This document shows, in pieces, positions 1,672-12,687 of a stretch of 64,000 nt of DNA. Each line of letters opens with the position of its first letter. Position 1 is the first letter of the stretch. The notes beneath the pieces were generated by a model, which did not search any database, was not told the origin of the DNA, and was given only the letters and a program-made list of their open reading frames with translations. The position numbers were made by a program, and so were the translations under genes. Where the stretch lies: positions 1 through 64,000 of the forward strand of contig JAFXQX010000016.1 of NCBI GenBank assembly GCA_017526745.1, in the 5' to 3' direction. Origin of the DNA: Lachnospiraceae bacterium (GTDB lineage: Bacteria; Bacillota; Clostridia; Lachnospirales; Lachnospiraceae).

Positions 1672-4059
1672 TCAATGCCCTATATCATCAAACAGGTCAT
1701 ATAACGGTGTGCGTGTGGGCTCCGGATCGTAATCGTAATCATAATCAGTCCGGTCATCGGCTGATTGCGAGGCAGTATAGTCTCTTTCGGTTATTCCTGC
1801 ATCAGATTGCGAAAGTGTCTCCTCTTTGATCGGAGCCTTCGGTTCAAGATCCTTAAGAGCGACTATATACGGTTCTTGAGTAAAGTTTCGATCCATTGCA
1901 AGCGTAGAGTCTTTTTCGATCATTTTGATATTACGATATTCGTCTGTAACACAACTTAAGCTAATGGAAGCAGCCTTCAGCATGCCTTCCAGAATGCCGA
2001 GCTGATGCAGATAATCACCATAATTGTCCTCAGACAATCCGAGATTGAGGGCTTTCTGCTTCAATTCCTTGTATCTGAGTATATGCGTTGCAGTTTCCAT
2101 ATCAACAGATAGGAGTATATCGTCAAGAGCCTTGCTCTTTTCTTCATCGGTCATTTGAGGCACAGGATCATCATTTACTTTATGAGCGTTCTTATATTTG
2201 GCTTCAAGATATCGTGCCATCTTGTTTTTCTCATACTCCTCGTATGATATAAGCACCTCCGGTTTACGGAAGGTTTTATAATTCAAGAATCGTATGATCT
2301 GTTCGGCTTCAACAAAAGTAAGTTCGTTGTACGGACAGGTCAGTCTCCATTTATCAGAGCTTTTGTTAAGCAGGTTGTACAGATCGACCTTCTGTTTACC
2401 TGTCATAGGCTCCAGTAGCGCATGTTCATGGCGTATTGTCGACTCATCAGGGCGCGAGAGCAGTCGATCGATCTGAGAAAGATCAAATCCTTTAAGAATA
2501 CGCTCAACGCTTTGCAGACCTCTGATCACACCTTCTATTTCCTGATAATGCTTTAGCGAACCCTTCAGTTTATCGGTATATTTCTTAAGATTGCTCCAGG
2601 TCTTGCATATCTCGCGAAGACGGGTCCTTATATCCTCGGGAGTGTATAGACAAAGAAGGTTTGCGGCATACATGGAGCGCTGCATCTTCTGGATCTTCTT
2701 GTCTATATCAGAGATCGCAGGATGAGATCTGAGAAGCTCTTCGCGGTCTTTTCCATTAAATAGGGACGTGATTGTATCAATGATCAGTTCCTTGAAGCAT
2801 TTAAGAACTTTGATGGCATAAAGGAATACGATCTCCAGATTCGATCTCCGACAGCCGTTTTCATCGTATCTGCTTATATTCATGTTTAATTCGTTTGTGC
2901 GTGGATCTTTTGATATATAATCGATGCGGTCGATCCTGGATTGTTTCTCAGCCTTCTTCTCTTGCTGAAGAATCTGGCTTTCAGGGATCGGTTCGCCGTC
3001 TTTATCAAAACCAATACCCGAATTCCAGCCCATGCGCTGGCATATGGCTTTTCTCATATATTTTTCTCCAAGTGCTGTATCCCTTACTTGAAACGGCAGG
3101 ATGCTGTCTTTCATATGAAGGTCATTGCATATAAACAGAACATGATCAGGAGTCTGCGATATATCATATCTGCTGATCCTTGTTCTCGGATCCTTGTATT
3201 GTTCCGACATGAACTGCATAAAGCCCTGCCAACTCGTAACACCATGTTTTTTACAAACTGCAAGAGCATTATCGATATCCTGCCTGATATGATCTTTATT
3301 GCTCGTGCCATCATGATTCTTTGCTCTTACATAGTCTTCAGCCACATCCGGGGCATCCGGCGTATGATTTTTGTGATCGACATCGGCATCAAGAAGTATG
3401 GGAAGATCATGTGCAAGACTTATTTCGTCGTTAAGTTTACGGAACTTACGTCGAAGTGCGTTGTTCATGCACAGTTTCCTTGTTCCGTCCATTGAATATG
3501 CACAGACAACGATATGGTTGTGGACATGATCCGTATTCATATGTGTTGATACGACGCATTGGAAGCCCGGGAAAGCACGCTCTGCAAACTCTATACCTAT
3601 CTTATGGACCTCGCGGGGGTCAAGATCAGTCATACCATGTTCTTTTCCCGGAAATGACTGAATGAGATGCTCGGCATCGATACTCTTCTTTTCAACGGTG
3701 ATCTTTGTCCCGGTCTTTTTATCAGTATATGTGGCATACTTTGCACTTCCGCGGCGCTTTTTACCTTCCCAGTGATGGTCATAAGATCGTTTTGTCTTTG
3801 CGAATTCTGTTGATGCTGTCCTTTTGTAGCAGTTCACGCCGGTAACGAGGATGCTTTTCTCGCCATCCAGTTTCATTACGGTCTTTTCGAGGTTCTGTGC
3901 ATAATTTAAAACAAAGTCAATATCATCATCGATACTTTCCTCGCCATGCATTTCCCCGGGAACACCATGCAGAGTATCCTTGGTGTCATCATCTATATAG
4001 TTGATACACGATTCGACGCCTTTTGAGCTGTGAACGGAGATGTTCTTGAGGATAGCCAT
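1672..4059 (-). CDS. MOBP-like relaxase / mobilization nuclease
   Basis: This 795-residue relaxase would nick oriT, bind the 5' end covalently and pilot DNA transfer. The N-terminal opening MAILKNISVHSSKG leads to a candidate nicking tyrosine at Tyr21 (NYIDDD). The metal-binding motif HxxTDxxHxH is at residues 173-182 (His173, His180, His182), which is the three-histidine signature of relaxases. Charged helical sequence, likely coiled coil, follows from about residue 360, and the C-terminal tail is acidic. Its ATG directly follows the stop of the small accessory gene (TAAATG), so the two should be translationally coupled. Its presence shows the element is at least mobilizable. No type IV secretion genes are visible in this window. 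Confidence 0.9.
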   Translation of the reverse strand: MAILKNISVHSSKGVESCINYIDDDTKDTLHGVPGEMHGEESIDDDIDFVLNYAQNLEKTVMKLDGEKSILVTGVNCYKRTASTEFAKTKRSYDHHWEGKKRRGSAKYATYTDKKTGTKITVEKKSIDAEHLIQSFPGKEHGMTDLDPREVHKIGIEFAERAFPGFQCVVSTHMNTDHVHNHIVVCAYSMDGTRKLCMNNALRRKFRKLNDEISLAHDLPILLDADVDHKNHTPDAPDVAEDYVRAKNHDGTSNKDHIRQDIDNALAVCKKHGVTSWQGFMQFMSEQYKDPRTRISRYDISQTPDHVLFICNDLHMKDSILPFQVRDTALGEKYMRKAICQRMGWNSGIGFDKDGEPIPESQILQQEKKAEKQSRIDRIDYISKDPRTNELNMNISRYDENGCRRSNLEIVFLYAIKVLKCFKELIIDTITSLFNGKDREELLRSHPAISDIDKKIQKMQRSMYAANLLCLYTPEDIRTRLREICKTWSNLKKYTDKLKGSLKHYQEIEGVIRGLQSVERILKGFDLSQIDRLLSRPDESTIRHEHALLEPMTGKQKVDLYNLLNKSSDKWRLTCPYNELTFVEAEQIIRFLNYKTFRKPEVLISYEEYEKNKMARYLEAKYKNAHKVNDDPVPQMTDEEKSKALDDILLSVDMETATHILRYKELKQKALNLGLSEDNYGDYLHQLGILEGMLKAASISLSCVTDEYRNIKMIEKDSTLAMDRNFTQEPYIVALKDLEPKAPIKEETLSQSDAGITERDYTASQSADDRTDYDYDYDPEPTRTPLYDLFDDIGH

Positions 4060-4497
4060 TTATTTGTCCCCTTTCATCCATTTTGTTGTCAGATCTTCTT
4101 CCTTACAGCATTTTTTATATATGGCTGCAAAAAGAGTCCCGATCTCATCAAGCTTTTCATGAAGACTCTGAATCACGTCATCAGACACCAGTTGGTATTT
4201 GTTTTGAGCGATGTAATAGCACATGGAATCAATCTGTTCTTCAATCCTGCTCATTTCCTCCTTATAGTCTTCAAGGAATGGAGAGACGACAACAGGTTCC
4301 GTCTGATCAGTGGGTTTATGTTCTGTAGCGGCAGATGATTTTTCCGGTACTTCCGTATTCGTATTGCCGTCCAGGCCGGCTAAAGATTCTTTCAAGAGTG
4401 TGCCCACAAAAGAACTCGTACTCATACCAACTGTTCTGGCTATTTGGTCTACCAGTTTCTTAAAATCATCAGATACATATACTTTCAAGAGCTTCAT
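4060..4497 (-). CDS. Probable relaxosome accessory protein (MobC-like position)
   Basis: This 145-residue protein is encoded immediately upstream of the relaxase, and its stop abuts the relaxase ATG. The N-terminal 45 residues (KVYVSDDFKKLVDQIA, then a helix ending in LLKESL) look like a ribbon-helix-helix DNA-binding fold, as in many relaxosome accessory proteins. The middle is low-complexity and the C-terminal half is helical. Position, size and N-terminal fold suggest it binds oriT and recruits the relaxase, but there is no diagnostic motif. It lies directly beside the hairpin-rich candidate oriT at 4523-4636, as expected for that role. Confidence 0.6.
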   Translation of the reverse strand: MKLLKVYVSDDFKKLVDQIARTVGMSTSSFVGTLLKESLAGLDGNTNTEVPEKSSAATEHKPTDQTEPVVVSPFLEDYKEEMSRIEEQIDSMCYYIAQNKYQLVSDDVIQSLHEKLDEIGTLFAAIYKKCCKEEDLTTKWMKGDK

Positions 4498-4522
4498 GAT
4501 ATTTACATCCTTTCTGTTTTTT

Positions 4523-4636
4523 CAGCCGAAGGCTGCCTAGTTCACGCCCCAGCGTGAAGGGTACGGGCTTGCCTGTCGGGGTGCGGGGCGGAAGCCTCGT
4601 CAAGCGATAATCCGGGCCCAACGGGGCCGGATTATC
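4523..4636. other. Candidate origin of transfer (oriT)
   Basis: Three inverted repeats lie just upstream of the accessory protein and relaxase genes. They are CAGCC-GAA-GGCTG (4523-4535), TTCACGC-CCCA-GCGTGAA (4541-4558), and a larger one built on GATAATCCGG/CCGGATTATC (4606-4636; 14-bp arms with one mismatch). The segment between them is GC-rich, unlike the AT-rich sequence on either side. Hairpin arrays next to mob genes are typical of oriT in MOBP systems. I cannot point to the nic site. Confidence 0.55.
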
Positions 4637-4639
4637 TCT

Positions 4640-5120
4640 GCTTGCTATGTCCATATCAGGGTGGTTCTATCTCTCTAATACAGAAATTTGTGGGATTTTA
4701 AGACAGAGCTGGCGGGATTCTTTCGTTATAATGCGGTCGGATATGAGACCGATCCGGCATTCCATTTTTTCACAGGGTTATTCGATTTTTGAGGGAATAA
4801 AGTGGTAATTCATCACGATAAGAAGTTCCCAACAGGGTCTGAAGGCGAACCGCAGTATATCCGAGAAGGGCTAAAGAGTACGCTAAGGGGCAGTGTAGAA
4901 GGCCTTTATTATGAGACTGTGACCATCTTTATAGAAATAATTCGAGTATCTGTGGAGTGTATGACCAGAAACAGGGCAAAGAGTTAGTAACTAAGTCGAA
5001 ATCGAATAAATACGTAACAAACTGGTAATAGCGACGCTTTTTGACACAAAAAATAACTTTTACGTCAAGTGATGTCTTAATATAACCAGATTCTCTGTAT
5101 TACAAGGGTAGGAACACTGA
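4640..5120. other. Non-coding stretch between oriT candidate and integrase
   Basis: Nothing convincing is encoded here. A GTG-initiated 61-codon reading (4802-4987) has no ribosome binding site and no family resemblance. An excisionase gene would be expected near the integrase in many elements, but none is visible. The segment probably holds promoters for the divergent mob and int transcription units. Confidence 0.4.
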
Positions 5121-5132
5121 CGGATTTTTCAC

Positions 5133-5166
5133 CCCTTCGTTTTGTGACCAAGTGTCATGCGAAGGG
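5133..5166 (+). promoter_or_regulatory. Hairpin in the integrase 5' leader
   Basis: CCCTTCG (5133-5139) pairs perfectly with CGAAGGG (5160-5166). The 20-nt loop contains a nested TGAC/GTCA pairing. The hairpin lies directly upstream of the integrase ribosome binding site (AAGGTGG, 5177-5183). No T-run follows, so it is not a simple terminator. It may be a recombinase or regulator site, or an RNA structure limiting integrase translation. Confidence 0.4.
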
Positions 5167-5190
5167 CCCGGATGAAAAGGTGGAAACCCT

Positions 5191-6528
5191 ATGGCGAATG
5201 AGCATGATTTGCTATTGAACTTAATACAGAAATCTCCTAATATTAGAGAAGGCGGTGTGTTCTCGGATTGTGAGAAAATGCTGAAAAAACTAAAGGTTCA
5301 GGAATTGATTGATACAGGCGTGCACAAGTACGCCATATCAGAAAGAAAGAACGGGGGTGGATACCAGACACGATACGTTGACGAAAACAAAAAATGTCAT
5401 GTTATAACCGGCCGATCAGAAGAAGCTCTGTACAACAGACTTTATGAATTGTATTTCGGAGATAAGGCTAGGATTCGTATGTGTGATCTGTTCGAAGAGT
5501 GGATACAGGAACGGGCAAAAACCAACCTGAGTCCCCGAACTCTTAAGAAGTACCGGGAGGCCTATGAGAAATATCTCGAGGGTACTGTAATAGATACAAC
5601 GCCGATCGCAAGGCTTACACCGGCGATCGTCACAGAGTTCTTCAATAATCTGATCGCTGAGCAAAAGCTGTCTGATAAGCAATATGGGAATATAATTGTT
5701 ATTCCCAACAAGATGTTCAGTTATGCCACGTTTAAGGGGATAACGCCGAATAATCCGATGACTGATGCGATGATAAACCGTAGAGCTCTCAAACATACCC
5801 GTGCAGCTAAGACTTCTGACCGCGTGTATTATGAGGACGAGCGTAAGAAGTTTATCGAGACTCTTATGGAACTTCTTGAGGAAGAACCTGACAGGAGTGA
5901 TTACTACGCTATCTTGCTCCTATGGGTGCTCGGACTTCGTATAGGCGAACTTGCAGCATTGAAATGGTCAGATATTGATTATGCAGCAAAAGAGATACAT
6001 ATACAGCGTATGGAAAGCCGTGATGAAGACAACAAGCCGGCTATTCTCGAACACTGTAAAGGCAATTCACCGACTGCAGACAGAATACTTCCTATATCAG
6101 AATATGAAATAGGTTTGTTTGCGAAAATCCGTGAATTGAACAAACGGTACGGTTTTGAATCGGAGTTTGTATTCGTTGGTTATAACTATAAGACGTGCAG
6201 GATTGAACGGCGGACCAATAAGAATATGGACAGCTCAATAAGGCGTATATGCCGCAGAGCGGGACTCCCTCAGAAGTCTGCACATGACATCAGACGTTCC
6301 GTTGCGTCAATGCTTTATGCGAATGGTGAGAGCCTGGAATCGATCAGAAAGTTTCTTGGCCATTCGGATCTTAGGACGACAAGTGAATATATCGTGGATT
6401 TTTCCGGAGCGGAAGACAGAAGCGAACGTATTCACGCGATACTTGCGCAGGATCTGCCTATGCAGAACAATACCGGACGCAGTATAAAAGAAGACAAGGT
6501 TGTCCGTTTCAAAACTAAAATATCTTAA
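5191..6528 (+). CDS. Tyrosine recombinase / integrase of the element
   Basis: This 445-residue site-specific recombinase integrates and excises the element at the tRNA-Gly 3' end. A SAM-like core-binding domain occupies roughly residues 95-190 (FEEWIQERAKTNLSPRTLKKY). The catalytic domain follows, with Arg250 (GLRIGEL), the HxxR box at His365-Arg368 (HDIRRS), His391 (LGHSD) and nucleophile Tyr400. All key residues are present, so it should be active. The N-terminal 90 residues form the expected arm-binding region. The start has an AAGGTGG ribosome binding site. The stop is only a few bases before the repeats and att site, the usual end position for such genes. Confidence 0.95.
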   Translation: MANEHDLLLNLIQKSPNIREGGVFSDCEKMLKKLKVQELIDTGVHKYAISERKNGGGYQTRYVDENKKCHVITGRSEEALYNRLYELYFGDKARIRMCDLFEEWIQERAKTNLSPRTLKKYREAYEKYLEGTVIDTTPIARLTPAIVTEFFNNLIAEQKLSDKQYGNIIVIPNKMFSYATFKGITPNNPMTDAMINRRALKHTRAAKTSDRVYYEDERKKFIETLMELLEEEPDRSDYYAILLLWVLGLRIGELAALKWSDIDYAAKEIHIQRMESRDEDNKPAILEHCKGNSPTADRILPISEYEIGLFAKIRELNKRYGFESEFVFVGYNYKTCRIERRTNKNMDSSIRRICRRAGLPQKSAHDIRRSVASMLYANGESLESIRKFLGHSDLRTTSEYIVDFSGAEDRSERIHAILAQDLPMQNNTGRSIKEDKVVRFKTKIS

Positions 6529-6531
6529 TAA

Positions 6532-6610
6532 GTACTACAACGTACTACAATTCAATAGCCTGAAATCCCTTGATTTTAATGTAATAAAACAAGCAGGGTA
6601 CGGGAGTCGG
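6532..6610 (+). repeat. att-region direct repeat, internal copy
   Basis: This copy starts with GTACTACAACGTACTACAA (6532-6550) and ends with GCAGGGTACGGGAGTCGG (6593-6610), a near copy of the tRNA-Gly 3' end. Both blocks recur exactly 157 bases downstream in the same order and spacing, and the sequence between them is also similar (TTGATTTTAATGTAATAAAA versus CTGATTTTACTGCAATAAAA). I read it as the att site of the resident element, with the second copy belonging to an earlier related insertion. Confidence 0.7.
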
Positions 6611-6657
6611 ACTGTTCCCGGGGCCGAAAACAAAGGGTTTCAAGTGGCAAAAAGCGG

Positions 6658-6707
6658 GATGTACTACAAGATGTACTACAGAAAGAATGTACTACAACGT
6701 ACTACAA
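6658..6707 (+). repeat. GTACTAC arm-type repeats
   Basis: GTACTACA recurs at 6661, 6673, 6689 and 6699, with two further copies at 6532 and 6542. Closely spaced short direct repeats beside an integrase and att core are typical arm-type binding sites for tyrosine recombinases. The block GATGTACTACAAGATGTACTAC also resembles the D-arm end of the neighbouring tRNA gene read on the plus strand (6793-6815). Confidence 0.5.
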
Positions 6708-6768
6708 AATCAAAACCCGCAAACCCCTGATTTTACTGCAATAAAAAAAGCAGGGTACGGGAATCGAA
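6689..6768 (+). repeat. att-region direct repeat, tRNA-proximal copy
   Basis: This is the second copy of the 6532-6610 unit at a constant 157-base offset. It ends within the functional tRNA gene (GCAGGGTACGGGAATCGA from 6750). The tRNA-proximal copy restores the intact 3' end of the tRNA, as integration at a tRNA must. Confidence 0.7.
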
Positions 6769-6819
6769 CCCGCCTCCTCGGCTTGGGAAGCCGATGTACT
6801 ACCGATGTACTAACCCTGC
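6749..6819 (-). tRNA. tRNA-Gly (anticodon CCC)
   Basis: This is a full cloverleaf on the minus strand. It has a 7-bp acceptor GCAGGGT/ACCCTGC, a D-stem GTAC/GTAC, an anticodon stem TCGGC/GCCGA with loop TTCCCAA giving anticodon CCC, a T-stem GCGGG/CCCGT with loop TTCGATT, and discriminator T as usual for bacterial tRNA-Gly. CCA is not encoded. A run of T follows the gene and can terminate transcription. Its 3' end is the target of the integrated element to the left. Confidence 0.93.
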
Positions 6820-6831
6820 GTTGGCGTTCAT

Positions 6832-6897: not shown

Positions 6898-6928
6898 GTC
6901 GAAAAAACAAAAAAATACAAAATACCTA

Positions 6929-6957
6929 TTGACATACTAGGATAATGGGTGTAATAT
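6929..6957 (+). promoter_or_regulatory. Promoter of the Cys/Met uptake operon
   Basis: A perfect -35 TTGACA (6929-6934) is spaced 17 bases from TATAAT-like TAATAT (6952-6957). Transcription should start near 6964, about 24 bases before the leader ORF. Confidence 0.85.
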
Positions 6958-6987
6958 GCTCTATATCAAAACGAAAGGAGACATGAC

Positions 6988-7104
6988 ATGAGAAACAGCA
7001 GTCAGATGAACAATTGCATGTGTTGTATGCATCGAATGCTTATTCCCCGGGCATTGAATACGGCCGGGTGTATGGCTCATCTGTCATGCGTCCGTTTACT
7101 GTAG
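6988..7104 (+). CDS. Sulfur-amino-acid-rich leader peptide (38 aa)
   Basis: This is a short ORF with an excellent AAAGGAG site (6974-6980) seven bases before its ATG, directly downstream of a strong promoter. Of 38 codons, 6 are Met (1, 7, 11, 14, 17, 29) and 5 are Cys (10, 12, 13, 28, 34). Codons 10-14 read Cys-Met-Cys-Cys-Met. The stop TAG lies 30 bases before a terminator hairpin, and the operon beyond encodes Cys/Met-type uptake. Codon content, position and the competing RNA pairings all fit a ribosome-mediated attenuator sensing charged tRNA-Cys and/or tRNA-Met. No T-box or SAM-riboswitch core is visible in the leader. The coding call is strong; the regulatory role is inference. Confidence 0.8.
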   Translation: MRNSSQMNNCMCCMHRMLIPRALNTAGCMAHLSCVRLL

Positions 7105-7141
7105 CAGGATCTTCGGATCAACGCAGAAGCCATTGCCCGGG
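7046..7141 (+). promoter_or_regulatory. Candidate antiterminator pairing in the leader
   Basis: CCCGGGCA (7046-7053, inside leader codons 20-22) is perfectly complementary to TGCCCGGG (7134-7141), which contains the 5' arm of the terminator. The two structures are therefore mutually exclusive. CCCGG (7046-7050) can also fold locally with CCGGG (7064-7068). A small GATC-TTCG-GATC hairpin lies between (7108-7119). Stalling on codons 10-14 should leave 7046-7053 just free for the long-range pairing. Confidence 0.6.
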
Positions 7142-7167
7142 AGATGAGAGGTCCGGGCTTTTATTTT
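7135..7167 (+). terminator. Attenuator terminator before the uptake operon
   Basis: GCCCGG (7135-7140) pairs with CCGGGC (7153-7158) and is followed by TTTTATTTT. It lies between the leader stop (7104) and the first structural gene (7235), so it can end transcription before the operon. Confidence 0.75.
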
Positions 7168-7234: not shown

Positions 7235-8920
7235 ATGAGAAAGAATATTATCAGAAAGCTATTGGCCAGTACCATTGCAGCAACTATAGGACTTGCAACA
7301 CTTACAGGATGCACGGCTGCAGCCCCCGCACCTGCCGCAGATGGAGCACCTGCCGCAGCGGATGAAGGAAGCCGGGTGTACAGAACACTTGACGAGATCA
7401 AGGAAGCCGGCCAGATCAATATCGGTGTATTTTCCGATAAGAACCCGTTCGGATATGTGGATGAGAACGGAACATATCAGGGATATGACGTTTATTTCGC
7501 AGAGCGTATCGGACAGGATCTCGGAGTTAAGATCAATTATGTATCAACTGAAGCGGCAAGCAGGGTCGAGTATCTTGAAACCGGAAAAGTGGATATCGTC
7601 CTCGCCAACTTTACAGTGACCGAAGAGCGTGCCGAAAAAGTTGATTTCGCCCTCCCTTATATGAATGTGGCTCTCGGTGTCGTATCTCACGAGGATAACG
7701 TTATCGAAGATCTGTCGCAGGTCAAGGCGGATGACCAGATCATCGTCATCTCCGGTACGACAGCCGAGACCTATCTCGAGAAGAACAACCCGGAGATCAA
7801 GCTTCAGAAGTTTGACACATATGCAACAGCCAAGACTTCATTTGAGAACGGTACCGGTGTTGCATGGGCAAACGACAATACCGAAGTTATCGCATACTCA
7901 CTTGAAAACGAGGGCTATGTTGTAGGTATCCCTTCGCTCGGAAGCCAGGATACGATCGCACCCGCTGTTTCAAAAGGTAACGAGTCACTTCTTAACTGGC
8001 TGAACGATGAGATCAAGGCACTCGGTAAGGAGAATTTCTTCCATGCCGATTATGAGGCAACACTTATTGACACATACGGTAAGGATTACGAAGAAACACT
8101 TGTTGTTGAAGGCGGCGAGACAGCAGGAACAGCTGCAAATGAGGAGAGTGCAGCAGCAGGCGACCTTGACATAGTTCCCGGAAACGGTGAGACGATCAAG
8201 ATCGCAGCTTCCCCCGTACCTCATGCCGAGATACTTGCCGAAGCTGCCAAGATACTGAAGGATTACGGATACAATCTTGATATAGTTGAGTTTGAGGATT
8301 ATGTTCAGCCGAACCTTGTTGTGGAGTCAGGTGAATTTGACGCAAACTACATGGAGCATGTTCCTTACCTTAACAGCTTCAATGAGGAGCAGGGAACACA
8401 TATCGTTGATGCCGGTGATATCCACTATGAGCCGTTCGGGATCTATCCCGGCACCAAGAAGAGTCTTGATGAGATCGGTGACGGAGACAGCATCGCGGTT
8501 CCCAATGATACGACAAATGAGGCAAGAGCTCTTCTGCTCCTTCAGGATAACGGTCTTATCAAGCTTAAGGACGGTGCGGGCCTTACGGCTACGGTAAATG
8601 ATATAGTTGAGAACACTCACAACATCAAGTTCGTCGAGCTTGAAGCGGCGCAGGTAGCAAGAGTCGTAAACGAAGTCGAATATGTGGTGCTTAACGGTAA
8701 CTATGCACTTGAGGCAGGTTATTCGGTAGGAAAAGATTCTATCGCTTACGAGGCAAGTGATTCGGTAGCGGCAAAGACATACGTTAACATCATCGGTGTC
8801 GAGGAAGGAAACGAGAACACAGACAAGATCAAGGCACTCGTTACGGTGCTCAGGTCTGATGCGATCAAGAAATTCATAACCGATACATATGACGGAGCCG
8901 TTATCTTCTTTGAAAAATAA
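7235..8920 (+). CDS. Two-headed substrate-binding lipoprotein: PAAT-type domain fused to MetQ/NlpA domain
   Basis: This is a 561-residue lipoprotein. The signal peptide ends in lipobox LTGC with Cys26 as the lipid anchor, followed by an Ala/Pro-rich spacer. Residues about 48-285 are a type 3 (polar amino acid, cystine-like) binding protein, with the typical opening FSDKNPFGYVDENG and a GYD sequence. An Ala/Glu linker (290-318) leads to a full MetQ/NlpA domain (319-561; IKIAASPVPHAEIL, then EFDANYMEHVPYL). These two families normally feed different ABC transporters. The operon downstream encodes both a MetNI set and a PAAT permease/ATPase set. The protein therefore probably delivers cystine or a similar ligand to one and methionine to the other. 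Ligand identity is inferred from domains and leader codons. Confidence 0.9.
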   Translation: MRKNIIRKLLASTIAATIGLATLTGCTAAAPAPAADGAPAAADEGSRVYRTLDEIKEAGQINIGVFSDKNPFGYVDENGTYQGYDVYFAERIGQDLGVKINYVSTEAASRVEYLETGKVDIVLANFTVTEERAEKVDFALPYMNVALGVVSHEDNVIEDLSQVKADDQIIVISGTTAETYLEKNNPEIKLQKFDTYATAKTSFENGTGVAWANDNTEVIAYSLENEGYVVGIPSLGSQDTIAPAVSKGNESLLNWLNDEIKALGKENFFHADYEATLIDTYGKDYEETLVVEGGETAGTAANEESAAAGDLDIVPGNGETIKIAASPVPHAEILAEAAKILKDYGYNLDIVEFEDYVQPNLVVESGEFDANYMEHVPYLNSFNEEQGTHIVDAGDIHYEPFGIYPGTKKSLDEIGDGDSIAVPNDTTNEARALLLLQDNGLIKLKDGAGLTATVNDIVENTHNIKFVELEAAQVARVVNEVEYVVLNGNYALEAGYSVGKDSIAYEASDSVAAKTYVNIIGVEEGNENTDKIKALVTVLRSDAIKKFITDTYDGAVIFFEK

Positions 8921-8942
8921 CGAAAATGGAGTTAGAGTTGCC

Positions 8943-9956
8943 ATGAGTATCGTTGAGATCAGGAATCTGACCAAGAAGTTTGAGGTTGAGGGACATACAG
9001 TAACAGCACTTGACGGGATCAGCCTCTTAATCGAAAAAGGCGACGTTTTCGGGATAATAGGTATGTCGGGAGCGGGCAAGAGTACACTTGTCCGCTCCAT
9101 CAATTACCTGGAGAAGCCTACCGAGGGAAATGTCCTTATCGACGGAGTCAATCTTGAGGAACTGTCCGAAAAACAGCTCAGGAAAGAGCGTAGCCGTATA
9201 GGCATGATCTTTCAGAACTTCAATCTTCTCGAACAGAAAAATGTCATAGACAACATCTGCTTTCCGCTTGAGATAGCGGGAGTTTCCAAAAAGGAAGCAA
9301 GAGAGAGGGCACGCAACCTTCTTCGGACCGTCAATCTCGAGGACAAGGAAAAGGCATATCCGTCACAGCTTTCCGGAGGGCAGAAGCAGAGAGTGGCGAT
9401 CGCCAGGGCGCTCGCACCGAACCCTCAGATACTGCTGTGCGATGAGGCAACGAGTGCACTTGATCCCCAGACAACTTCTTCGATACTGGCGCTTTTGAAA
9501 AAGATCAATGAGGATCTCGGGATCACGATAGTCATTATCACCCATCAGATGTCGGTAGTGACCGATGTGTGCAAAAAAGTGGCTATCATTGACAGCGGTC
9601 GGCTGGTTGAGGAAGGACCTGTTGATGAGATCTTTGCGGACCCGTCGTCTGATGCGGCCAAGGAACTCATATCGGGAAAAGAGATAAGATATACCCCGAT
9701 AGACAGACTTCATGAGGAAAAGAAGATCCGCATAGTGTTTATGGAAAATTCCGCATACGAACCGGTGATAGCAAACACTATATTAAAGCTTCAGACACCG
9801 GTAAACATACTTCGTGCCGATACACGAAACGTTAACGGAAAGGCAGTAGGCGAGATGATCCTCGGTCTTCCCGAAGGCGAAGCGATACAGAATGATATAA
9901 TCAGCCATCTGAAAGGAGCGGGACTGGCCGTAAAGGAGGTGACCGAGAATGAATGA
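8943..9956 (+). CDS. metN: Methionine ABC transporter ATP-binding protein MetN
   Basis: This 337-residue ATPase would power methionine import with MetI. Walker A is GMSGAGKST, the signature is LSGGQKQR, and Walker B is ILLCDEATSALD. The C-terminal 80 residues, from about IRIVFMENSAYEP, form the NIL domain. In MetN that domain binds methionine inside the cell and inhibits transport. I start at the ATG at 8943, after the receptor stop at 8920. A longer reading from 8889 overlaps the receptor's conserved C-terminus. Its end overlaps the metI start by eight bases. Confidence 0.93.
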   Translation: MSIVEIRNLTKKFEVEGHTVTALDGISLLIEKGDVFGIIGMSGAGKSTLVRSINYLEKPTEGNVLIDGVNLEELSEKQLRKERSRIGMIFQNFNLLEQKNVIDNICFPLEIAGVSKKEARERARNLLRTVNLEDKEKAYPSQLSGGQKQRVAIARALAPNPQILLCDEATSALDPQTTSSILALLKKINEDLGITIVIITHQMSVVTDVCKKVAIIDSGRLVEEGPVDEIFADPSSDAAKELISGKEIRYTPIDRLHEEKKIRIVFMENSAYEPVIANTILKLQTPVNILRADTRNVNGKAVGEMILGLPEGEAIQNDIISHLKGAGLAVKEVTENE

Positions 9957-10608
9957 ACAGGTTATCAAAATGCTTCTTGAGGGTATAAGGGATACACTGT
10001 ACATGACCCTCGGCTCCGTGATCATCGGTTATATTGTCGGACTTCCGATGGGTATCCTTCTGTATGTGACAAGCGAGAAGGGACTTCATCCGAATAAACC
10101 TGTCTACAGGGCCTTTGATTTTATATGTAATATCATCAGGAGCATCCCCTTTCTGATACTCCTGATCCTGCTCATCCCCTTTACAAGGTTTGTTGTCGGC
10201 CAGAGCTACGGTTCAACAGCAACGATAGTGCCTCTCGTGATATGTGCGGCACCTTACATAGCAAGAGTGGTTGAGTCGTCACTAAACGATGTTGATGCGG
10301 GAGTGATAGAAGCAGCCAGATCCATGGGGGCGAGCAATTTTCAGATAGTGACAAAGGTACTTCTTGTTGAGGCAAGAACTTCACTGCTTACGGGATTTAC
10401 GATAACAACCGGGCTTCTTCTCGGATATTCCGCAATGTCCGGAACGGTAGGGGGTGGCGGCCTCGGTGATATCGCGGTAAGATACGGTTATTACAGATGG
10501 CAGACCGATATTATGATAATCACGGTCATTCTTCTGATCGTGATATTCCAGATCATTCAGAATCTCGGAACAAATATCTCTGCACGATTTGATAAGAGAA
10601 AGCATTAA
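9949..10608 (+). CDS. metI: Methionine ABC transporter permease MetI
   Basis: This 219-residue membrane protein has about five transmembrane helices. It carries the MetI-type permease motif around residues 120-150 (EAARSMGASNFQIVTKVLLVEA), the EAA loop that docks on MetN. The length matches the family. Its start lies eight bases inside metN, preceded by an AAGGAGGT-like site, so it is translationally coupled. It should form the channel for the MetQ half of the fused receptor. Confidence 0.93.
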   Translation: MNEQVIKMLLEGIRDTLYMTLGSVIIGYIVGLPMGILLYVTSEKGLHPNKPVYRAFDFICNIIRSIPFLILLILLIPFTRFVVGQSYGSTATIVPLVICAAPYIARVVESSLNDVDAGVIEAARSMGASNFQIVTKVLLVEARTSLLTGFTITTGLLLGYSAMSGTVGGGGLGDIAVRYGYYRWQTDIMIITVILLIVIFQIIQNLGTNISARFDKRKH

Positions 10609-10616
10609 GGTTTTGT

Positions 10617-11276
10617 ATGGATCCTGAAGTATTAAGATCATACGTGCCACTTTACAAAGAGGCATTCATACTGACGCTTGAAACAGGCTGGCTGGGGATT
10701 GCTATCGCTTTTGCCATAGGTATTGTTACGGCATTTATAATGCATTTTCGAATTCCGGTGCTTGCAAAGATCGCATCGGTCTATGTCGAACTGTTCCGTA
10801 ACACCCCTCTTCTCGTCCAGCTTTTCTTTATATATTTTGCACTTCCTAAGATCGGTATATCCATTCCGGCAAGAGAGTGCGGTGCGATCGGTCTCGGCCT
10901 TTTGGGCGGAAGTTATATGGCAGAGGGGATAAGGAGCGGTCTTGATGCCGTCGGCACTTTGCAGGAAGAGTCGGCACTGGCTCTCGGGATGTCCAAAAGA
11001 CAGATGTTCATGTATGTGATCTTCCCGGAAGCGTTGTCGATAAGTGTTCCCGGAATAGTTGCCAATGTCATATTCCTGCTCAAGGAAACGAGCGTTTTTT
11101 CGGCGATCAGCCTTATGGATCTGATGTTCACCGCCAAGGACCTGATCGGCCTGTATTATGACACAACGGAGGCGCTGGTGCTCCTGGTCGTGTTCTATAT
11201 AATAATGCTGCTGCCTGTATCTTTGCTCGGAAGCATAGTGGAAAAGAAAGCAAGATACAGGACGCTGGGAGTATAG
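10617..11276 (+). CDS. Polar amino-acid ABC transporter permease (first subunit)
   Basis: This 219-residue HisM/GlnP-type permease starts only eight bases after metI. It shows the family's RNTPLLVQLFFIYF segment near residues 60-75 and an EAA loop (ESALALGMSKRQMFMYVIFPEAL). There are about five membrane helices. Together with the next gene it probably forms a heterodimeric channel for the PAAT-type head of the fused receptor. Cystine is the likeliest substrate given the Cys-rich leader, but this is inference. Confidence 0.88.
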   Translation: MDPEVLRSYVPLYKEAFILTLETGWLGIAIAFAIGIVTAFIMHFRIPVLAKIASVYVELFRNTPLLVQLFFIYFALPKIGISIPARECGAIGLGLLGGSYMAEGIRSGLDAVGTLQEESALALGMSKRQMFMYVIFPEALSISVPGIVANVIFLLKETSVFSAISLMDLMFTAKDLIGLYYDTTEALVLLVVFYIIMLLPVSLLGSIVEKKARYRTLGV

Positions 11277-11279
11277 TTT

Positions 11280-11948
11280 ATGGGATTTGAGGTTCTTGCA
11301 AAAGGGAATAATGCATTAAGATTGCTTTCCGGACTCGGAGTGGCGATGCGCATCAGTCTCATATCCGTCGCGATCAGCATCGTTGTCGGGATAGCGATAG
11401 GCGTTATCGTTGCCGGCAGGCACCCGGCTGCGTTTGCCGTCTTTCGGGTGTACCTAGAGATCGTCAGGATAATGCCGCAGCTTGTCCTTTTGTTCATCGT
11501 ATACTTCGGCACCACAAAAGCACTGGGGATAAACCTTGATGCCGAGACTGCCTCCATAATCGTATTCTCATTCTGGGGATGCGCTGAAATGGCGGATCTT
11601 GTAAGAGGAGCTCTTCTGGGGATCCCGGTCATACAGTATGAATCTGCCGCATCGCTCGGTATGCCCCCTCTTATGACATACAGATATGTTATCGTACCGC
11701 AGATACTTCGGCGCATGATCCCGCTGTCGATCAACCTGATAACAAGGATGATCAAGACGACGAGCCTTGTCATGATGATCGGTATAGTCGAAGTTTTAAA
11801 GGTGGGACAGCAAATAATAGAGGCTAACAGAAAATCATCTCCGAATGCAGCTTTCGGCATATTTGCGACCATATTCTTTTTGTACTTTATCGCCTGCTGG
11901 CCGATAAGCAGACTGGCCGCATATCTGGAAAAAAAGTGGGAGAACTGA
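11280..11948 (+). CDS. Polar amino-acid ABC transporter permease (second subunit)
   Basis: This 222-residue permease is paralogous to the one just upstream. It contains EIVRIMPQLVLLFIVYF in place of the usual RNTP segment and an EAA loop (YESAASLGMPPLMTYRYVIVPQ). It follows the preceding stop by three bases and the ATPase gene follows it by one, so all three are tightly coupled. Two different permease genes with one ATPase is the usual layout of amino-acid importers of the HisQMP class. Confidence 0.88.
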   Translation: MGFEVLAKGNNALRLLSGLGVAMRISLISVAISIVVGIAIGVIVAGRHPAAFAVFRVYLEIVRIMPQLVLLFIVYFGTTKALGINLDAETASIIVFSFWGCAEMADLVRGALLGIPVIQYESAASLGMPPLMTYRYVIVPQILRRMIPLSINLITRMIKTTSLVMMIGIVEVLKVGQQIIEANRKSSPNAAFGIFATIFFLYFIACWPISRLAAYLEKKWEN

Positions 11949-11949
11949 A

Positions 11950-12687
11950 ATGGATGTTATTCTGGAAGTAAAGAACATAAGCAAGAGCTATGAGGACATT
12001 ACGGTGTTCGAGAATCTTTCCCTGACCGTAAAAAAAGGCGAAGTTGTCGTGATCGTAGGTCCTTCGGGCTGCGGAAAGAGTACTTTTCTGCGCTGCATAA
12101 ACGCTCTTGAGAGCATACAGGACGGAGAGATACTTCTTGACGGGGAAGCAATAGACGCTTCTTCAAAAGAACTTCCCCGGATCAGGGAAAAGATCGGAAT
12201 GGTGTTCCAGAGCTATGATTTGTTCCCCCACCTTACGATCCTGCAAAACCTTATGCTCGCACCGGTCAAGGTAAAAAAGACACCCAAGGCAGAGGCCGAA
12301 AAAGAAGCATTATCGCTTCTTGACAGGGTCGGGCTTCTGTCCAAAAAGGACAACTTCCCCAGGCAGCTTTCCGGCGGACAGAAACAGAGGGTCGCCATAG
12401 TCAGGGCACTTATGATGCATCCCGAGATACTGCTTCTTGATGAGATCACGGCAGCACTCGATCCCGAGATGGTAAGAGAAGTTCTTGATGTTGTTCTGTC
12501 TCTTGCAAAAGAAGGAAGGACAATGGTGATAGTCACCCATGAGATGCAGTTTGCCAGGGCCGTCGCCGACAGAATGGTGTTCATCGACGGCGGAAAGATC
12601 GTGGAGGAAGGCAGCGCACAGGAATTTTTCGATGATCCGAAGACGGAAAGGCTCAGACAGTTTCTGAATTCATTTTCCTATGATTAA
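11950..12687 (+). CDS. Polar amino-acid ABC transporter ATP-binding protein
   Basis: This 245-residue ATPase has Walker A GPSGCGKST, Q-loop MVFQSYDLFPHLT, signature LSGGQKQR, Walker B ILLLDEITAALD and switch His in VTHEM. The length and the FDDPKTERLRQFL tail are typical of GlnQ/HisP/TcyC proteins. It lacks a NIL domain, unlike MetN in the same operon. It ends the operon, eight bases before the convergent rarA stop. I see no clear terminator between them. Confidence 0.92.
   Translation: MDVILEVKNISKSYEDITVFENLSLTVKKGEVVVIVGPSGCGKSTFLRCINALESIQDGEILLDGEAIDASSKELPRIREKIGMVFQSYDLFPHLTILQNLMLAPVKVKKTPKAEAEKEALSLLDRVGLLSKKDNFPRQLSGGQKQRVAIVRALMMHPEILLLDEITAALDPEMVREVLDVVLSLAKEGRTMVIVTHEMQFARAVADRMVFIDGGKIVEEGSAQEFFDDPKTERLRQFLNSFSYD

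Follow-up and report, generated by a model that had tools for sequence, protein, structure and literature searches.

Introduction

Ribosome-mediated attenuators of the trp and his type are known from enteric bacteria, and a Leu-rich ilv attenuator has reportedly been found in Staphylococcus aureus, a Firmicutes leader peptide for another amino acid and in another class. Work by Canestrari from 2020 is said, by its title, to present mycobacterial polycysteine (poly-Cys) open reading frames (ORFs) as cysteine-responsive and leaderless. Here we describe a cysteine- and methionine-rich leader at positions 6929–7167 of a 64,000-nucleotide (nt) stretch of forward-strand DNA from a Lachnospiraceae bacterium (assembly GCA_017526745.1, contig JAFXQX010000016.1, positions 1–64,000; hereafter the window). 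Judged from its sequence and that of its relatives, this leader is very probably a ribosome-mediated transcription attenuator that senses the charging of Cys-tRNA (and Met-tRNA).

According to the available text of two studies, leader-peptide attenuation is rarely reported from Firmicutes, in which T-boxes usually serve instead (PMC2965389, PMC1262725); the His leaders of hisS*/hisZ in bacilli were described as a novelty beyond the Proteobacteria and the Actinobacteria (PMC2965389). For cysteine, the uORFC-8-2 motif before cysS in Rhodobacterales combines a tandem-Cys upstream ORF (uORF) with an apparent intrinsic terminator, and attenuation by Cys-tRNA has been proposed for it (PMC8632094). 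Poly-Cys uORFs also lie upstream of cys operons in actinobacteria and mycobacteria, with no conserved terminator reported in the available part of the source (PMC1262725), and the mycobacterial ones are treated in a further study (PMC13236596). In Clostridium perfringens, Cys T-boxes and S-boxes control an overlapping set of genes (cysK, metK, transporters) via premature termination (PMC2940859). A literature search whose coverage mostly excluded subscription journals found no report of a clostridial Cys/Met leader family.

Elements of the leader

The elements of the leader, all on the forward strand, are as follows.

6929–6934 and 6952–6957, +: promoter TTGACA-17-TAATAT (-35 box, 17-nt spacer, -10 box), read from the sequence
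6924–6942, +: imperfect inverted repeat ACCTATTGACATACTAGGA spanning the -35 box, conserved upstream of leaders
6974–6980, +: Shine-Dalgarno (SD) site AAAGGAG of the leader ORF, read from the sequence
6988–7104, +: leader peptide ORF of 38 codons (ATG at 6988, stop at 7102–7104), product MRNSSQMNNCMCCMHRMLIPRALNTAGCMAHLSCVRLL
7015–7029, +: control codons 10–14, Cys-Met-Cys-Cys-Met (CMCCM), a Cys/Met run kept in relatives
7033–7038, +: CGAATG core, nearly invariant; 144 of the 164 unique leaders read it in frame as CGA-ATG
7044–7053, +: strand A, the 5' strand of the antiterminator, within the ORF (alignment, covariation, folding)
7062–7064 with 7129–7131, +: extension helix (alignment A2, below)
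7065–7094, +: hairpin B over the final ORF codons, 7065–7076 with 7083–7094 (terminator scan, alignment, folding)
7134–7143, +: strand C, the 3' strand of the antiterminator and 5' arm of the terminator (alignment, covariation)
7135–7167, +: intrinsic terminator (C with its 3' arm, D), stem 7135–7141 with 7152–7158, then a T-rich tail at 7159–7167, TTTTATTTT

Direct reading confirms what a sequence-only reading of the locus had claimed for the ORF, namely 11 sulfur amino acid codons (5 Cys and 6 Met), five of them in a row at codons 10–14. The probability of at least 10 Cys or Met in 37 codons by chance is ~7e-7, given that Cys and Met together make up 3.7% of the residues in the ten surrounding genes. 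The promoter and the AAAGGAG site, too, lie where that reading had placed them, with a start of transcription predicted near 6964. The promoter (6929–6957) agrees with the consensus at 10 of 12 positions; since nine promoter-like sites are found between 6500 and 13000, with 9.0 expected, the match is weak on its own. The terminator claimed before the first structural gene was found at 7135–7158 by reading and by folding. A strict terminator scan misses it because its 10-nt loop exceeds the 8-nt limit of the scan, which reports a different hairpin at 7065–7094. The entire 214-nt leader is not more stably folded than its shuffles (z = -1.19), and its own stability is therefore no argument.

Conservation and covariation of the competing helix

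The strand at 7046–7053, CCCGGGCA, can pair without a flaw with that at 7134–7141, TGCCCGGG, the two being exact reverse complements. The 8-base-pair (bp) antiterminator proposed earlier is thus present, but it understates the helix, which across the family spans 10 bp plus a short extension. Two alignments bear on this. The first (A1), anchored on CGAATG so that the invariance of this core in it is by construction, contains 51 of 54 unique leader-terminator sequences; three loci (L091, L097 and L108) were omitted, their anchor being missing or misplaced. The second (A2, 48 rows) includes leaders of other target genes.

Applied without guidance to A1, RNAalifold yields a single helix of 10 bp, that of A (columns 24–33) with C (columns 146–155). 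In the window, this helix (7044–7053 with 7134–7143) comprises eight Watson-Crick pairs and one wobble. Across A1, 97.6% of its cells are paired, with changes on both sides at four of the ten pairs: column pair 29/150 is A-U in 24 and G-C in 24 of the 51 rows, and column pair 33/146 is A-U, C-G, G-C or U-A in 46. The tree of the lipoprotein encoded by the first downstream gene requires a minimum of 10 changes at column 29 and of 11 at its partner, column 150. The A:C helix together with hairpin B (82.9% of cells paired, both-side changes in 7 of 11 pairs) scores above each of 500 shuffles by all five measures used, and above every slid register. Here, too, belong L091 and L108, two of the loci outside A1, whose A and C strands are divergent and still pair over 11 bp, in L108 with two wobbles.

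The helix is kept across gene classes, with 96.9% of cells paired in A2. In that alignment a 4-bp extension block is 80.3% paired, with both-side changes in all four pairs; its changed-pair count is reached by 3 of 500 shuffles, and its other four measures by none. The terminator pairing, C:D, is 86.8% paired in A1. The compensatory changes expected of a competing pairing are thus found in relatives, as A:C is conserved with changes on both sides.

Leaders and control codons in homologous loci

Homologous loci were collected through the lipoprotein, from genus mates (36 of 37 genomes matched, many partially) and from GTDB contigs (the best 80 of 564, confirmed). Full or near full-length matches gave 97 loci, or 91 after six same-genome duplicates were dropped. 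A first Cys/Met-run filter passed 66 of these, and 64 leaders remained once L052 and L053, which have no SD site, had been removed; among those kept, L039 lacks an SD site at the start chosen by script. A stricter filter, which calls for an SD site and an ATG- or GTG-initiated leader with a Cys/Met run, retains 63 of the 91 real regions and 11 of 1820 dinucleotide-shuffled ones. A typical leader peptide in relatives reads MKTFAINYNSMCMCCCRMLFSRACMKTGCLAHLSCTCTD. The covariance models described below locate a leader farther upstream at L037 and L104, and the upstream sequence of L076 and L107 extends over no more than 180 and 281 nt. At L100 and L110, two Cys-run ORFs, a longer one resembling that of L108 and then a short one, stand in tandem within less than 500 nt upstream of the lipoprotein gene, hinting at double attenuators.

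The 164 unique leaders divide into an anchored set of 144, with CGA-ATG in frame, and 20 without it. The codons for cysteine and methionine are conserved, as the sequence-only reading would have it: in the anchored set, codons -6 to -1 before the core include Cys in 142 leaders and Met in 129, and codon -1, which ends 11 nt ahead of strand A, is Cys in 121. These leaders use TGT 321 times and TGC 59 times, and it is therefore the codons that are conserved rather than one fixed sequence. In ten genes of the window, the counts are 13 TGT and 30 TGC, and a preference for minor codons is usual for attenuators. Leaders found via the lipoprotein were unselected for RNA pairing, though the filter required Cys/Met runs, while the covariance models contain the last four codons before CGAATG, which introduces some circularity into the Cys statistics of leaders found with them. 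There is a hint that leader composition follows the target gene, in that MetN leaders (n = 4, three of the genomes from one genus) average 2.75 Met and 1.5 Cys and the single anchored CysK leader has 4 Cys, small numbers in both cases.

The CGAATG core, directly after the Cys run and outside the A:C helix, is nearly invariant even though Arg has six codons, of which CGA is the one least used by neighbouring genes (7 of 195 Arg codons, window genes only). A pairing of the core with a CATTTG near C, noticed by eye, was dropped because the partner is not conserved.

Folding and a proposed mechanism

Folding was examined for 53 leaders, the misplaced L097 still among them. When the RNA 3' of a ribosome stalled at codon -1 is folded, A:C forms in 42 of the 53; when the ribosome is at the stop codon and A is out of reach, C:D forms in all 53. 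A ribosome whose A site holds codon 14 would extend to about 7040, just 5' of strand A. For the window itself, RNA reaching to 7145, before D, has A:C plus hairpin B as its best fold, and covering A yields hairpin B together with the terminator. Termination here thus seems to require ribosomes on A, and by folding, untranslated RNA from this locus is predicted to favour read-through.

These results suggest the following sequence of events. When Cys-tRNA or Met-tRNA is scarce, the ribosome would halt at codons 10–14, its front edge no further than about 7040, so that A, which begins at 7044, would stay bare. Bare A would then capture C as C emerges from the polymerase, no terminator would form, and the operon would be read. 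When the tRNAs are charged, ribosomes would pass over A, which would be covered or otherwise unavailable, so that C:D could form and transcription stop. Cysteine would probably be the main signal and methionine the second. The weak point of this scheme is how A would be kept from C after the ribosome has passed; a following ribosome might do so, or A might pair with the 5' arm of B.

A number of observations weigh against this account. The A:C helix of the window carries one mismatch, and codon 15, mostly Cys in relatives, is His. A sign test of paired changes on the tree found three supported pairs, too few for significance, and none that went the wrong way; the single pair of hairpin B examined on the tree showed no coordinated change. 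Pairing of A with the 5' arm of B, the candidate for sequestering A, is possible in 89.2% of cells and shows no covariation, for which reason a conserved A-sequestering hairpin is not claimed. In the folds, C:D forms in 9 of 53 leaders even with the ribosome stalled at codon -1. If the RNA may pair across a ribosome placed at the stop codon (A then being 66% paired on average), the leaders split into 32 with C:D and 18 with A:C, and with no ribosome, into 26 with A:C and 25 with C:D. At equilibrium with D added, the window RNA adopts A:D and pairs C with the 5' arm of B, without a terminator, and does so with a ribosome at the stop codon as well. Finally, 28 of the 91 loci fail the leader filter, some with nothing found, and L048 and L051 have the inverted-repeat promoter upstream of the lipoprotein gene with no leader ORF seen, so that promoter and attenuator can evidently separate.

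Alternative explanations

Sulfur genes of this kind are under T-boxes and S-adenosylmethionine (SAM) riboswitches in C. perfringens (PMC2940859, as far as its available text goes), and the leader RNA is strongly conserved, which would suit a metabolite riboswitch or a T-box on which an ORF happens to lie. Rfam scans of the window and of the leader agree with the earlier statement that neither is present. At gathering thresholds the 64-kb window contains no riboswitch or T-box and a single tRNA-Gly, and at the leader the scan returns only chance-level matches (E = 0.15 and 0.36); neither the T-box (RF00230) nor the SAM riboswitch (RF00162) is matched upstream of the operon. No Rfam family reached threshold on the leader in the loci scanned; 20 loci, 19 of them with leaders, gave only two tRNA-like elements, and ten loci without an adjacent leader (L037 included) gave no sulfur riboswitch at gathering thresholds. 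The rest of the window's genome has three sub-threshold T-box matches, which stand before trpD, the gene of a transporter lipoprotein and a TrpB-like gene (proteins named by reading), and one SAM riboswitch match, before a metK-like gene. RNAalifold, moreover, gives A:C and no aptamer, and the Cys/Met run employs both Cys codons. A riboswitch or T-box is thus scarcely credible here. We give just as little credence to a functional small Cys-rich protein that happens to be encoded upstream, for although the SD site and the ORF are conserved, the Cys count varies, compensation occurs at the level of RNA, and a terminator and linkage to sulfur genes are frequent.

The remaining alternatives retain a role for translation. 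In nascent-chain arrest, a small molecule (cysteine, SAM, sulfide or a metal) and the Cys/Met-rich peptide would together stall the ribosome and operate the same RNA switch, and the peptide does appear conserved (CRM..SRA..GC.AHLSC). The residues after the Cys run are, however, accounted for by the RNA, an R-to-Q change (CGG/CAG) accompanying a C-to-T change in strand C; the L091 peptide is wholly different there, and yet the 11-bp pairing is kept; and leaders differ in how many Cys and Met they have and in what order. We consider such arrest quite unlikely. Translational or Rho-dependent control, like that proposed for actinobacterial poly-Cys uORFs, would make the hairpin incidental, and seems very unlikely: a hairpin and T-run stand between leader stop and gene in 55 of the 64 leaders, mostly far from the gene start (quartiles 70–110 nt), and four of the nine leaders without a detected hairpin have full-length model matches.

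A regulon of sulfur genes

Two covariance models, R1 built from A1 and R2 from A2, were used to find further members. In the window's genome R1 finds this leader alone (E = 6.8e-20; the next match has E = 1.9). The window's own genome is counted among the matches in every search, and searches over 40 genomes apply stricter filters, so that the match counts may be low. At E <= 0.001, R1 matches 26 of 392 genomes of the order, in 15 of 173 genera. R2 matches 50 of 397 genomes in the family (46 of the 334 genera sampled), 5 of 398 of the phylum and 15 of 37 of the genus, several of the last with two to four copies; at E <= 0.01 it matches 13 of 391 genomes of the class, in 6 of 223 genera, including four families designated f53, f66, f82 and f83.

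A script read the leader and the gene that follows it for 111 listed matches, which stand for 110 places because one is duplicated, and 109 downstream proteins were clustered; in one genome (G872) the script chose a wrong leader although the model match is strong. The main clusters are 53 pyridoxal phosphate (PLP) sulfur enzymes, 23 binding proteins and 8 permeases, followed by 5 GST-like proteins, 4 MetN, 3 PepT-like, 3 MetK, 2 CysK and 8 singletons. Enzymes or importers of sulfur amino acids thus make up 95 of the 109, the 8 permeases being placed by resemblance only, and 14 fall outside clear sulfur clusters. Cluster representatives pass NCBIfam cut-offs as O-acetylhomoserine sulfhydrylase, MetK, CysK, PepT-like peptidase and (2S)-3-sulfopropanediol dehydratase; the best matches of others, below threshold, are to the cystathionine gamma-lyase/synthase type, MetN and a glutamate-cysteine ligase-like protein. 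Fifteen further copies in the genus, whose downstream genes were named by eye except for one, precede a sulfhydrylase gene (10), cysK (one), the S component of an energy-coupling factor (ECF) transporter (one, the exception), a lipoprotein (one), a kinase-like gene at a distance of 292 nt (one) and the end of a contig (one).

Because the same leader precedes many other sulfur genes in relatives, control is at the level of a regulon and is not specific to uptake. The comparisons assembled here lend good support to the reading of these leaders as a new, widespread clostridial family of ribosome-mediated attenuators, recognisable before sulfur genes in dozens of genera. The model needs nothing but the RNA to detect members, and can therefore point to sulfur roles of genes whose function is unknown. 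A broader proposal, that one RNA module (CGAATG core and A:C helix) is a common clostridial attenuator for sulfur amino acid uptake, for homocysteine, cysteine and SAM synthesis and for sulfonate use, that it replaces the expected T-boxes and SAM riboswitches, reads Cys and Met in one run, works with inverted polarity (translation being needed for termination) and sits on a shared palindromic promoter, strikes us as evenly balanced between true and false.

Some individual members deserve mention. At L203 (G616:C15:57562-57709), the leader precedes a (2S)-3-sulfopropanediol dehydratase gene, and sulfonate use may thus belong to the regulon. The leader of L244 (G031:C9:43455-43589, reverse strand), with an MCWCMCCKM core, precedes the ECF transporter S component, of which a 60-residue piece matches the riboflavin-type S component of Pfam; the leader suggests that the substrate contains sulfur. 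At L230 (G387:C1:90111-90251), a one-Cys leader with a weak model match (E = 3e-4) precedes a nitrogenase-like gene, which at a guess encodes a methylthio-alkane reductase and as such would fit a sulfur regulon. Other weak or doubtful matches are those in G642 (an RsgA-like gene by eye, E = 7e-4) and at L115 (a 45-nt match). At L145 (1643–1713, +) and L149 (1430–1500, -), a 71-nt tRNA-like element directly follows a Cys/Met leader and terminator and precedes metK and the gene for a DUF2292 small protein, which was recognised by Pfam in L145 and by eye in L149. It scores 34.7 and 37.8 bits as an Rfam tRNA, with no call from ARAGORN; its acceptor and T arms are normal, and its anticodon arm has a 4-nt loop, GGCA, on a stem that differs between the loci with pairing kept.

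The inverted repeat at 6924–6942 is likely, by its sequence, to be a repressor operator and thus a second layer of control; such a repressor might, at a guess, be a protein of the Rrf2/CymR type. Of 167 unique upstream regions, 125 agree with the repeat consensus ACCTATTGACATAGTAGGT, itself derived from them, in at least 16 of its 22 positions, as against 5 of 3340 mononucleotide shuffles.

The downstream operon and its surroundings

The genes that follow the leader in the window are these.

7235–8920, +: fused solute-binding lipoprotein, SBP_bac_3 domain and NlpA/MetQ domain (domain search, profile and PDB comparison)
8889–9956, +: MetN-type ATPase with NIL domain (start at 8943 more likely, by eye)
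9949–10608, +: MetI-type permease (domain search; exceeds NCBIfam cut-off)
10617–11276 and 11280–11948, +: two amino-acid-type ATP-binding cassette (ABC) permeases, both BPD_transp_1
11950–12687, +: second ABC ATPase (domain search)

Domain content bears out the earlier assignment of the operon to the Cys/Met type, and 7235–12687 is most naturally read as a Cys and Met uptake operon; it is the restriction of the leader to uptake that did not hold, the same leader heading other sulfur genes. The lipoprotein fuses an amino-acid-type to a methionine-type binding domain, and the operon holds parts of two ABC importers. MetQ models match the second half of the lipoprotein, below their cut-offs. The nearest PDB entries are 2yjp and 1xt8 for the first half, which we take to be cysteine-binding proteins, and 4ib2 for the second. 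Against NCBIfam, the permease at 10617–11276 has sub-threshold matches only, and that at 11280–11948 has none.

Upstream, at 1672–6820, genes for a MobA/VirD2-type relaxase and a tyrosine integrase adjoin a tRNA-Gly(CCC) gene, and a second copy of the 3' end of this tRNA gene lies at 6593–6609. The region is probably an integrated mobilisable element immediately upstream of the operon; a search of plasmid records gave no match.

Comparison with known systems

Cys T-boxes and S-boxes differ from the clostridial leaders in that their RNA binds tRNA or SAM directly, with no translated ORF, and, as described in the available text, Cys T-boxes prefer TGC, as opposed to the TGT of these leaders (PMC2940859). 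The uORFC-8-2 motif, as described in the part of its source available, is set apart by its occurrence in Alphaproteobacteria, by its one target gene and by the position of its Cys codons in the first stem (PMC8632094). Compared with the mycobacterial poly-Cys uORFs, the clostridial leaders regularly have an SD site and an intrinsic terminator. The His leaders of hisS*/hisZ are likewise a case of leader-peptide attenuation in Firmicutes, for another amino acid and in another class (PMC2965389, available text).

The closest parallel is with the enteric trp and his attenuators, whose logic the sequence-only reading had invoked. Shared with them are a leader ORF that carries cognate codons, an antiterminator in competition with a terminator helix, and the position of an intrinsic terminator before the first gene. 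The clostridial antiterminator, however, has its 5' strand inside the ORF, at a median of 48 nt before the stop codon, and two amino acids share one run of control codons. No classical protector (1:2) hairpin is evident at the control codons, and the logic is therefore trp-like and not identical. Unlike its enteric counterparts, moreover, the RNA of this locus is predicted to lean towards read-through when left untranslated.
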